This document shows positions 47,494 through 50,331 of a stretch of 64,000 nt of DNA, one piece after another. Location of the stretch: the NCBI RefSeq assembly GCF_006716745.1, contig NZ_VFPP01000001.1:5467386-5531385 (forward strand), given 5' to 3'. A model generated the notes under the pieces. The model did not search any database. It saw only the letters and a list, made by a program, of their open reading frames with translations, and was not told the DNA's origin. The position numbers and the translations under genes are program-made. Position 1 is the stretch's first letter, and each line of letters begins with the position of its first letter. Source of the stretch: Saccharothrix saharensis. GTDB taxonomy: Bacteria > Actinomycetota > Actinomycetes > Mycobacteriales > Pseudonocardiaceae.

Positions 47494-47790
47494 TCACCTG
47501 CCGAGGTGGCCGCGGCCCAGCTTGAGCAGGATCATGGCCAGGTCGCGGCCGTCCGGGCCGAGCTCCTTGTACCGGTTGATCACGTCGATCTCCCGGTTGT
47601 GCACGATCCGCGTGCCGCCGGCGGCCATCCGCGCCGCACCGATGATCTTGGAGACCTCGACCCGCCGCTTGACCAGCCGCAGCAGCTCCGCGTCCAGGTG
47701 GTCGATCTCCGCGCGCAGCGCGTCGATGTCCGGGTTGGTGTCGGTCTCCGCGTCGGTCTCGATCCCCGGGGCGGTTTCGGTGCTGTTCAT
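47494..47790 (-). CDS. AroQ-type chorismate mutase
   Basis: 98 residues. It is a single all-helical AroQ domain that turns chorismate to prephenate, the committed step to Phe and Tyr. LRAEIDHLDAELLRLVKRRVEVSKIIGAARM, then GGTRIVHNREIDVINRYKELGPDGRDLAMILLKLGRG match M. tuberculosis Rv0948c closely. That enzyme needs its C-terminus to be activated by DAHP synthase; the end here is RGHLGR. Its neighbour uvrD1 is divergent, as in M. tuberculosis. Upstream is a leader ORF rich in Phe and Tyr codons plus competing hairpins, which suggests control by attenuation. Confidence 0.94.
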   Translation of the reverse strand: MNSTETAPGIETDAETDTNPDIDALRAEIDHLDAELLRLVKRRVEVSKIIGAARMAAGGTRIVHNREIDVINRYKELGPDGRDLAMILLKLGRGHLGR

Positions 47791-47836
47791 CGTGACGACC
47801 TCTCGACTCTGGTTGGAGTCCCAGCCCTGGCAGCAG

Positions 47837-47870
47837 CGAAGCCCCGGGGTCCGAGGACTCCGGGGCTTCG
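47837..47870 (-). terminator. Terminator-like hairpin (3:4) before chorismate mutase
   Basis: The arms are 47837-47852 and 47855-47870 (on the minus strand CGAAGCCCCGGAGTCC, then GGACCCCGGGGCTTCG). They pair over up to 16 bp with one wobble at a tight turn. It lies between the leader ORF and the chorismate mutase ATG. No U tract follows, as is common in high-GC actinobacterial terminators. Confidence 0.75.
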
Positions 47871-47921
47871 TGGTGGCTTGTCGGCGCTAGCGGTCCACGG
47901 GAGCCGGAGTCCGGTTCCCGT
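47855..47921 (-). promoter_or_regulatory. Attenuator elements: 1:2 hairpin and 2:3 antiterminator
   Basis: Segment 1 (ACGGGA on the minus strand, 47916-47921) pairs with segment 2 (TCCCGT, 47897-47902), extended by CCGG/CCGG inside. Within segment 2, GGACTCCGG (47904-47912) is the exact complement of CCGGAGTCC (47855-47863), which is the 5' arm of the terminator hairpin. The 9-bp 2:3 pairing would therefore open the terminator. Segment 1 begins within the Tyr codon of the leader peptide, right after the Phe codons. Confidence 0.7.
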
Positions 47922-47943
47922 AAAAAAACTCGAAGTGGGCCAT
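47887..47943 (-). CDS. Leader peptide rich in Phe/Tyr, upstream of chorismate mutase
   Basis: 18 codons: MAHFEFFYGNRTPAPVDR. Four of the first eight residues are Phe or Tyr (FEFFY), the end-products of the pathway that the next gene serves. A GTG two codons upstream is an alternative start. It ends in TAG 17 nt before the terminator-like hairpin. Stalling at the Phe/Tyr codons would cover segment 1 and favour the antiterminator. This is inferred from sequence; no expression evidence is available. Confidence 0.7.
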   Translation of the reverse strand: MAHFEFFYGNRTPAPVDR

Positions 47944-47991
47944 GCGCACCCGCTCATCATGCCACAGCCACGGGCTGTCGGTGGTACCCGG

Positions 47992-47997
47992 TAACGT
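47992..47997 (+). promoter_or_regulatory. -10 element of uvrD1
   Basis: TAACGT is followed by 9 nt and the ATG at 48007, so the leader would be absent or only a few bases long. Confidence 0.4.
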
Positions 47998-48006
47998 GGA
48001 CAGGCG

Positions 48007-50331
48007 ATGAGCGCCTTGTTCGACTTGCCTGCAAGTCCCCCTGCCTCCCGGTCCGCGCGGCTGCTCGAAGACCTCAACCCGTCCCAGCGTCGGGCCGTCG
48101 AGCACTCGGGCGCCCCGCTGCTGGTCGTCGCGGGTGCGGGCTCGGGCAAGACGCGCGTGCTCACCCGTCGGATCGCCTACCTGCTCGCCGAGCGCGACGT
48201 GCACCCCGGTGAGGTCATGGCGATCACCTTCACCAACAAGGCCGCCGCCGAGATGAAGGAGCGCGTGGCCGACCTGGTCGGCGCGCGGGCCCGCTCGATG
48301 TGGGTGTCCACGTTCCACTCGATGTGCGTGCGGGTCATGCGCCGCGAGGCCAAGACGCTCGGCATGTCGTCGAACTTCTCCATCTACGACTCCGACGACA
48401 CCCGCCGGCTCATCACGCTGGTGGCGCGCGACCTCGACCTGGACCCCAAGCGCTACCCGGCCCGCACGCTGGCGATCCACATCTCGAACCTGAAGAACGA
48501 GCTGGTCGACGCCGCCACCGCCAAGGAGCGCGCGACCAACGACCTGGAGCGCCGCGTCGCCGAGGTCTACGAGAGCTACCAGCGCCGGCTCGGCGACTCG
48601 AACTCGCTGGACTTCGACGACCTGATCATGCGGACCGTCGAGCTGCTGCAGAACCACCCGGACGTGGCCGAGCACTACCACCGCCGGTTCCGGCACGTGC
48701 TGGTCGACGAGTACCAGGACACCAACCACGCCCAGTACACGCTGGTCCGCGAGCTGATCGGGACCGGCGCGGACGGCGTGCCGCCGGGCGAGCTGTGCGT
48801 GGTGGGCGACGCCGACCAGTCGATCTACGCCTTCCGCGGCGCGACGATCCGCAACATCGTGGAGTTCGAGCGCGACTACCCGCAGGCCACCACGATCCTG
48901 CTGGAGCAGAACTACCGGTCCACCCAGACCATCCTGACCGCGGCCAACGCGGTCATCTCGCGCAACCCGAACCGCCGGGACAAGCGGCTGTGGAGCGACC
49001 TGGGCGACGGCGAGAAGATCGTCGGCTACGTCGCGGACAACGAGCACGACGAGGCGCAGTTCGTCGCCAACGAGATCGACCGCCTGGTCGACACGGGCGA
49101 GGCGAACAACGGCGAGATCGCCGTGTTCTACCGCACCAACAACCAGTCGCGCGTGTTCGAGGAGATCTTCATCCGCCTCGGCCTGCCCTACCGGGTGGTC
49201 GGCGGCGTCCGGTTCTACGAGCGGCGCGAGGTGCGCGACGCCCTGGCCTACCTGCGGGCGCTGTCCAACCCCGACGACACGGTGTCGCTGCGGCGCATCC
49301 TCAACGTGCCCAAGCGCGGCATCGGCGAGCGCGCCGAGGCGTGCGTGTCGATGTACGCCGAGCGCGAGCGGATCGGCTTCGCGGCGGCGCTGCGCGACGC
49401 GGTCACCGGCAAGGTGCCGCTGCTCAACCCGCGCTCGCGCAACGCGATCGCCGGGTTCGTCGAGATGATGGACGAGCTGGGGCGGCTGGTCGAGCGCGGC
49501 GACGACGTGGCCGACATCCTCGAAGCGGTGCTGGAGCAGACCGCCTACCGGGCCGAGCTGGAGGCCAGCGAGGACCCGCAGGACCACACCCGGGTCGAGA
49601 ACCTGAACGAGCTGGTCACCGTGGCCCGCGAGTTCACCGACCTGGGCACGGCGGCCCCCGCGCCCGACGAGGCGGTAGCCGATTCGGAGGGCCTGCCCGC
49701 CGAGGGCTCGCTGGCCGCGTTCCTGGAGCGGGTGTCGCTGGTCGCGGACGCCGACTCGGTGCCGGACGCGGAGTCCGACGGCGTGGTCACGCTGATGACG
49801 CTGCACACCGCCAAGGGCCTGGAGTACCCGGTGGTGTTCTGCACCGGCTGGGAGGACGGCGTCTTCCCGCACATGCGGGCCCTGGGCGACCCGACGGAGC
49901 TGGCCGAGGAGCGCCGCCTGGCGTACGTGGGCATCACGCGCGCCCAGAAGCGGCTCTACCTGTCGCGGGCGCTGGTGCGCTCGGCGTGGGGCCAGCCGTC
50001 GGCGAACCCGGCGTCGCGGTTCCTCGACGAGATCCCGGCCGACCTGCTCGACTGGCGGCGGCTGGAGCCCAAGCGCACCGCGCCGTCCGCGCCGACGTCG
50101 TGGAGCCGCGGTTCGGGCCCGTCCCGCCCGGCGCCGACGAACGCGGGCTGGAAGGACACGCCCGCGCTGAAGCTGGACGTGGGTGACCGGGTGAGCCACG
50201 ACAAGTACGGGCTCGGCCGCGTGGTGGCCGTGGACGGCTCAGGGCCCCGTGCGACCGCCACGATCGACTTCGGCGGCGCGGGGACGGTGCGGCTGATGCT
50301 CATCGGCGGCGTACCCCTCGTGAAGCTCTGA
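48007..50331 (+). CDS. uvrD1: UvrD1/PcrA-type DNA helicase
   Basis: 774 residues, superfamily 1A helicase. Motif I GAGSGKT is at 43-49, Ia AITFTNKAAAEMKERV, II LVDEYQDTNHAQY, III VVGDADQSIYAFRGA, IV EQNYRSTQ, V VTLMTLHTAKGLEYP and VI EERRLAYVGITRAQ. It unwinds DNA in nucleotide-excision repair and at stalled forks, and in mycobacteria UvrD1 works with Ku. The C-terminal segment (VGDRVSHDKYGLGRVVAVDG) is the Tudor-like domain of PcrA that binds RNA polymerase. It is divergent from chorismate mutase, the same order as Rv0948c-Rv0949. Confidence 0.96.
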   Translation: MSALFDLPASPPASRSARLLEDLNPSQRRAVEHSGAPLLVVAGAGSGKTRVLTRRIAYLLAERDVHPGEVMAITFTNKAAAEMKERVADLVGARARSMWVSTFHSMCVRVMRREAKTLGMSSNFSIYDSDDTRRLITLVARDLDLDPKRYPARTLAIHISNLKNELVDAATAKERATNDLERRVAEVYESYQRRLGDSNSLDFDDLIMRTVELLQNHPDVAEHYHRRFRHVLVDEYQDTNHAQYTLVRELIGTGADGVPPGELCVVGDADQSIYAFRGATIRNIVEFERDYPQATTILLEQNYRSTQTILTAANAVISRNPNRRDKRLWSDLGDGEKIVGYVADNEHDEAQFVANEIDRLVDTGEANNGEIAVFYRTNNQSRVFEEIFIRLGLPYRVVGGVRFYERREVRDALAYLRALSNPDDTVSLRRILNVPKRGIGERAEACVSMYAERERIGFAAALRDAVTGKVPLLNPRSRNAIAGFVEMMDELGRLVERGDDVADILEAVLEQTAYRAELEASEDPQDHTRVENLNELVTVAREFTDLGTAAPAPDEAVADSEGLPAEGSLAAFLERVSLVADADSVPDAESDGVVTLMTLHTAKGLEYPVVFCTGWEDGVFPHMRALGDPTELAEERRLAYVGITRAQKRLYLSRALVRSAWGQPSANPASRFLDEIPADLLDWRRLEPKRTAPSAPTSWSRGSGPSRPAPTNAGWKDTPALKLDVGDRVSHDKYGLGRVVAVDGSGPRATATIDFGGAGTVRLMLIGGVPLVKL

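Follow-up and report, generated by a model that had tools for sequence, protein, structure and literature searches.

The closest described actinobacterial system is aroR of Corynebacterium glutamicum, which is leaderless. It lies before aroF, a gene for DAHP synthase (Neshat et al., 2014, as cited in PMC11802643 and PMC11525245), and the leader is also described in PMC4046766. In the portions of these papers that are available, aroR resembles the element analysed here in that it serves an aromatic-pathway gene of an actinobacterium, has Phe-Tyr-Phe in its leader and responds to Phe; Tyr availability was without effect (PMC11802643). It differs in controlling DAHP synthase, whereas the present element precedes chorismate mutase, and the likeness is one of description. 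A position before an aroF-type DAHP synthase gene is not that of the present element, but leaders in other families do precede genes for type I-beta DAHP synthase.

Escherichia coli has attenuators before pheA (leader pheL) and pheST (cited in PMC11802643). According to that brief citation, a Phe leader governs the chorismate mutase step by attenuation in pheA, as is proposed below; unlike the present case, the system is proteobacterial and the enzyme is a fused chorismate mutase-prephenate dehydratase. Streptomyces lividans has amino-acid attenuators that include trpL, leuL, ilvL and others (PMC8079986, Table 4). Their leader open reading frames are mostly leaderless and are followed by hairpins, several of which have no U-rich tail, and in these properties they are similar to the present element. 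They respond to other amino acids, however, and none of the eight leaders of Table 4 is for Phe/Tyr or chorismate mutase. The ilvB1 attenuator of Mycobacterium tuberculosis, as presented in the accessible part of PMC13236596, also has a translated leader open reading frame with control codons and alternative terminator and antiterminator structures, but it concerns branched-chain amino acids and has a U-tract. Extended Data Fig. 5 of the same paper has further M. tuberculosis attenuator loci, and chorismate mutase could be among them. According to its accessible text, a comparative survey of 2005 saw no RNA structure conserved upstream of actinobacterial operons for Phe or Tyr (PMC1262725). 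The sequence-only reading from which this work started knew of no attenuator for a stand-alone AroQ chorismate mutase, and in the open-licence literature, as far as its texts were accessible, no actinobacterial chorismate mutase attenuator was found described.

The window is the whole stretch of 64,000 nucleotides of Saccharothrix saharensis DNA that was analysed, and all coordinates refer to it. An element on its minus strand is very probably a ribosome-mediated transcription attenuator of a chorismate mutase gene, in which we infer ribosome stalling, termination and a response to amino acids. The mechanism so proposed is that of the trp and phe attenuators. Unusual properties are the breadth of occurrence, the conserved TTT codons and an antiterminator of two helices.

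The locus and its leader

Between a divergent uvrD-like gene and the chorismate mutase gene, the minus strand has a short open reading frame, a hairpin and then a stronger hairpin. The features are as follows.

48007..50331, plus strand: UvrD/PcrA-like helicase gene, divergent (Pfam UvrD-helicase, E 9.9e-95; PcrA_UvrD_tudor)
47956..47961, minus strand: -10-like hexamer CATGAT, 6 nt before the GTG at 47949, which predicts a leaderless transcript (motif)
47887..47949, minus strand: leader open reading frame VRMAHFEFFYGNRTPAPVDR, 20 codons and TAG, with a probable leaderless GTG start; the ATG of the sequence-only reading is at 47943
47920..47928, minus strand: putative control codons TTT TTT TAC, Phe Phe Tyr (codon counts over 160 leaders)
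47896..47922, minus strand: hairpin 1:2 (anti-antiterminator), of which segment 1 is 47922-47911 (folding, covariation)
47904..47912, minus strand: segment 2, GGACTCCGG, which pairs with segment 1 or segment 3 (covariation)
47895..47898, minus strand: segment 2b, GTGG, 5′ side of a second antiterminator helix (covariation in relatives)
47870..47873, minus strand: segment 3a, CCAC, 3′ side of the second antiterminator helix (covariation in relatives)
47855..47863, minus strand: segment 3, CCGGAGTCC, in the 5′ arm of hairpin 3:4 and exactly complementary to segment 2
47837..47870, minus strand: hairpin 3:4, terminator-like, 14 pairs with one mismatch, no U-tract in the window
47799..47804, minus strand: GAGAGG, a Shine-Dalgarno-like site for chorismate mutase, which the 3:4 hairpin does not include (sequence reading)
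47494..47790, minus strand: AroQ-type chorismate mutase, the gene proposed to be controlled (list of open reading frames; Pfam CM_2, NCBIfam PRK07857 and TIGR01808)

In the family search, the chorismate mutase product matched Pfam CM_2 and NCBIfam PRK07857 and TIGR01808, all above cut-offs. As the uvrD-like gene is divergent, the 3:4 hairpin does not end or serve an upstream gene. A small inverted repeat, GACTC...GAGTC, adjoins the chorismate mutase Shine-Dalgarno site at 47805-47820 (minus strand) and is found at Lentzea loci as well; a further control of translation by this repeat is possible. The genome has a second CM_2 gene, L001 (G000:C1:7012522-7012755), which shows no F/Y leader within 420 nt. 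An Rfam search with 47600-48200 and six related loci, at E up to 1, gave no family at gathering score. Matches to F6 and Xoo8 were below their gathering scores and were taken as chance matches on GC-rich hairpins.

Conservation was followed among 86 relatives, of which the best 80 were taken, from Saccharothrix, Lentzea, Amycolatopsis, Kibdelosporangium, Actinosynnema and others. With CTG and TTG starts allowed, 79 of these 80 relatives have an F/Y-rich in-frame leader of the FFYGxRTPAPV type, and a restriction to ATG/GTG starts leaves the same 79. The exception, L074, has the element, but one T is missing from its T-run and the frame is broken. Because 79 of 80 relatives have the leader in frame and the pairings covary, the element is more than a chance arrangement.

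A search for relatives of the chorismate mutase had hits in 149 of the 150 genomes from the family and in 195 of the 199 from the order. A further 100 upstream regions, a non-random sample hand-picked for diversity, were combined with the 80 relatives and the window to give 181 regions. A leader was accepted if it had F-x-Y-G, F-Y-G or Y-Y-G in frame with an ATG or GTG start; as the search demanded these motifs, their conservation is partly by construction. The criterion selected 161 leaders, of which L145 was judged spurious and removed. Thus a leader rich in Phe and Tyr, the end products of the gene it precedes, as the sequence-only reading described it, is kept upstream of chorismate mutase in 160 of the 181 regions, distributed over eight families of one order, and 150 of the 160 leaders are distinct over 120 nt. 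By family (families and genera are given by the codes of the search tool), the leader is found in 118/121 regions of f1, 22/37 of f2, 6/6 of f81, 5/7 of f74, 4/5 of f3, 3/3 of f80, 1/1 of f72 and 1/1 of f75. Within f2, it is present in 22 of the 25 regions fetched from genus g47 and in none of the 12 regions outside that genus.

Several loci deserve separate mention. In L074 and L238, a shortened T-run before the Tyr codon breaks the leader frame, by sequencing error, decay or slippage on the T homopolymer. The leader is decayed or lost in L151, L164 and L145 of f2 g47, a genus that mostly retains it. Four loci of f2 g48 (L163, L166, L168 and L169) have no FFY leader before chorismate mutase; their upstream sequence is partly similar, with a possible short open reading frame after a promoter-like GTGGCA..CTGG motif. 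No such leader precedes chorismate mutase in L176, from a 2.3-Mb genome of f2. L043, titled Rhodococcus rhodnii NRRL B-16535, is identical to the Kibdelosporangium locus L041 over a 146-nt leader stretch, and the leader peptide of L031, titled Nocardia sp. NRRL S-836, resembles those of Lentzea. The titles of these two genomes are probably wrong.

The leader was originally read as 18 codons, ATGGCCCACTTCGAGTTTTTTTACGGGAACCGGACTCCGGCTCCCGTGGACCGCTAG, from 47943 to 47887 on the minus strand (MAHFEFFYGNRTPAPVDR). The reading frame is indeed there, but its start is probably the in-frame GTG at 47949, two codons upstream, since the -10-like CATGAT at 47961-47956 sits 6 nt before it. An in-frame RTG with the hexamer [CT]ANNNT 6-8 nt upstream is found in 134 of 160 leaders compared with 52 of 2434 other RTGs of the same regions (2.1%), the hexamer having been picked after the alignments had been inspected. 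When the frame is left unrestricted, 135 hexamer-bearing RTGs share the frame of the Tyr codon of FFY, and two and two are in the other frames. Start and Tyr codon are 8 or 9 codons apart in 121 of 135 leaders with a hexamer start. Leaderless translation of the leader is predicted from the conserved -10 spacing. A transcription start downstream of the leader would have spoken against attenuation; from the motif, not from a mapped 5′ end, the start is predicted at the leader's own start codon. A sigma-70 promoter scan of 47750-48100 found nothing and a terminator scan of the same region was empty, and the analysis therefore relies on conservation instead.

Among the putative control codons, the position two before Tyr is occupied by TTT in 155 of 160 leaders; Phe at this position was a search criterion for most leaders, and the choice of TTT over TTC was not. 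The uvrD gene of the window has no TTT and 21 TTC codons. Nine TTYTTYTAYGG sites are present in the genome, and the eight outside the leader all read TTCTTC. The leader thus retains TTT in a genome that uses TTC. In 109 of 160 leaders the stop codon comes 33 nt downstream of the Tyr codon, just beyond the 1:2 hairpin.

Folding and the proposed mechanism

The 1:2 hairpin that had been placed right after the Phe/Tyr codons is present at 47922-47896. The exact 9-nt complement formed by GGACTCCGG (47912-47904) and CCGGAGTCC (47863-47855), the latter in the 5′ arm of the 47870-47837 hairpin, is likewise as first read. The 3:4 stem was given as 16 bp; folding yields 14 pairs and one A.C mismatch. 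A second antiterminator helix, GTGG (47898-47895) with CCAC (47873-47870), was absent from the sequence-only reading. The 150-nt leader folds more stably than all 200 dinucleotide shuffles (z = -3.38).

In the proposed mechanism, transcription would begin at or beside the leader GTG, and translation of the leader would be that of a leaderless mRNA. A shortage of charged tRNA-Phe, and perhaps of charged tRNA-Tyr, would stall the ribosome on TTT TTT TAC, where it would cover segment 1. This would leave segment 2, lengthened by 2b, to pair with segment 3 and block 3:4, and RNA polymerase would continue into the chorismate mutase gene. With both charged tRNAs plentiful, the ribosome would reach the stop codon or leave, segment 2 would be covered or held in 1:2, and 3:4 would form and stop transcription. 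Perhaps Phe is weightier than Tyr for the response, since Tyr availability has no effect in the aroR system of C. glutamicum.

A CCCC..GGGG hairpin is present downstream in 157 of 160 leaders. The choice of 3:4 by lowest energy often took a larger downstream hairpin, so 3:4 was chosen by anchoring on CCCC/GGGG. With segment 1 removed, to mimic its being covered by a ribosome at the Phe codons, the predicted fold has 2:3 in 154/157, and in the full-length, ribosome-free RNA 3:4 is predicted in 154/157. In RNA that ends after segment 3, 1:2 is predicted in only 43/157 (18/118 in f1), with another fold minimal in 114/157; 2:3 replaces 1:2 in the window and in two of four other examples. These first three expected folds are predicted all together in 40/157. 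Removal of all RNA as far as 12 nt beyond the first base of the stop codon gives 3:4 in 157/157, a result that is nearly automatic. As 1:2 is seldom predicted, termination by default would need either 1:2 to form first, co-transcriptionally, or a ribosome at the stop codon.

No T-run follows 3:4 in the window, and at least five T in the 10 nt after GGGG are found in 61 of 176 elements (0/7 in f5). This raises the question of whether the alternative helices might gate the chorismate mutase ribosome-binding site and not termination. Such translational attenuation would fit a 3:4 hairpin without a U-tract, and mycobacterial cysteine uORFs are reported to act on translation, according to the accessible part of PMC13236596. 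However, GAGAGG and the ATG start are 33 and 47 nt past 3:4, outside the covarying helices, and T-rich tails do follow 3:4 in f72 (1/1), f74 (5/5), f80 (3/3) and f3 (4/6). Control at the level of translation is therefore considered improbable, and transcription attenuation is the preferred reading.

Covariation of the alternative helices

Pairing was assessed in two alignments. Alignment A3 has 94 of the 160 leaders, 93 of them distinct, from eight families; it is made up of 13 of the 79 leaders from the best-80 set, all 80 from the hand-picked regions and the window. MAFFT placed the 3:4 3′ arm wrongly in A3, and 3:4 was therefore counted on alignment A4, whose 52 sequences include neither the window nor further sequences of the CCCCGGGG type.

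In A3, 91.8% of the 1:2 cells are paired and two-sided changes are found in 60 cells, compared with 18.3 +/- 5.6 in shuffled alignments; the score is 0.161 compared with 0.080 shuffled and 0.138 for the best slid register. For 2:3, 88.2% of the cells are paired, five of nine pairs have two-sided changes, and these amount to 52 cells compared with 14.2 +/- 5.0, a number reached by none of 500 shuffles. The 2:3 score is 0.215 compared with 0.102 shuffled, and the true register is above all slid ones, the best of which has 0.117. One 2:3 pair, 34-121, is unpaired in 27 of 93. With 1:2 and 3:4 taken together in A4, 8 of 23 pairs have two-sided changes, in 56 cells compared with 17.1 +/- 3.0 shuffled, and the score is 0.177 compared with 0.090 shuffled and 0.087 for the best slid register; the 3:4 stem shows compensatory A-U/C-G/G-C changes. 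Compensatory base changes, whose absence from relatives, with that of the short open reading frame, was to count against attenuation in the sequence-only reading, are thus seen in 1:2, 2:3 and 3:4, and these together with the conserved leader support attenuation. The bare count of pairs that changed on both sides says less and is not unusual against shuffles, being reached by 226, 93 and 36 of 500 (1:2, 2:3, and 1:2 with 3:4, respectively).

The whole antiterminator, including the five pairs of the second helix, has 83 two-sided cells compared with 25.7 +/- 5.7. In f1, GTGG goes with CCAC ahead of segment 3 in 56 of 58 leaders, and GTGAT goes with ATCAC there in 41 of 45. By swapped and shuffled energies, the second helix is supported in f1, f74, f3 and one f72, and is unsupported in f2, f81, f80 and one f75. 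Shuffles take no account of relatedness, and the structure derives from the very sequences examined, so slid registers and swaps are the safer controls. In 164 of 176 elements, own 2:3 pairs more strongly than cross-family swaps do on average (f74 2/5, f72 0/1). The corresponding number for 1:2 is 166 of 176, with 1/9 in a group of elements that precede DAHP synthase (9 of its 13 members included; see below).

The same covariation bears on what the peptide itself may do. Most of the 80 relatives keep the residues that follow FFY, as would be expected if F-F-Y-G-x-R-T-P-A-P-V stalled the ribosome as a nascent peptide and sensed a small molecule. But this stretch also encodes the 1:2 and 2:3 RNA, which covaries, and the peptide varies along with the RNA: FFYGYRSAVPV in f2, FSYGHRSPVSV in f81, FFYGSGHPAAV in f80 and FTYGTRPAGCHG in f5. 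Arrest by the peptide is thus very unlikely. Slighter still is the case for a small protein that acts in trans, with the hairpins as a plain terminator: the open reading frame is conserved and apparently translated, but its N-terminal half is unconserved between families, it keeps its place ahead of chorismate mutase, and segment 2 covaries with segment 3.

Distribution and significance

A covariance model of 103 positions, R1, was run on 344 class genomes and has a match at E <= 0.01 in 146 of them. The genome of the window has one match (E 6e-20). Among the matches listed are 24 genomes of f5, with best E values from 5e-12 to 2e-6. All seven f5 loci that were read (L271-L276 and L278) have a leader, for example MLTQTTFLFTYGNRPTGCHGRAA, followed by a chorismate mutase open reading frame, the family search having been run on that of L276 only. 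The element thus precedes chorismate mutase outside the order too, at 7/7 f5 loci read. When 296 genomes of the phylum were searched with a DNA pattern, 22 had a match. Eleven other pattern-match loci were read: three, L115-L117, all of f2 g47, are the element, and eight are not.

Twenty further regions with weaker R1 matches, from f93 and other families, were also read, and none has chorismate mutase within reach. Thirteen of the 20 have an aromatic leader followed by an open reading frame that reads as type I-beta DAHP synthase; 11 of these 13 leaders have Trp, for example MQRNFWRFYGYRPDTPVACRALR. Nine are from f93 and one each from f8, f92, f98 and f106. Pfam searches cover two of these open reading frames, and four of the leaders were read by eye. 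At these loci (L279, L281-L288, L290, L291, L292 and L295) the aromatic leaders, such as MQRNFWRFYGYRP..., are accompanied by hairpins before the DAHP synthase gene. The remaining seven regions show no such leader by eye.

Chances seem about even that these elements form one ancient, class-wide family of leaderless F-x-Y-G attenuators. Such a family would provide expression feedback by Phe/Tyr, or by all aromatic amino acids where Trp codons are present, at both actinobacterial shikimate branch points, with the module moved between genes and located before chorismate mutase or type I-beta DAHP synthase according to lineage. The 103-position model could become an RNA family.

If the element works as proposed, chorismate mutase, the entry enzyme for Phe and Tyr, would be under tRNA-charging control in many actinobacteria. 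Such actinobacteria include producers of antibiotics built from Phe or Tyr. The leader is a testable handle on the flux between Trp and Phe/Tyr.
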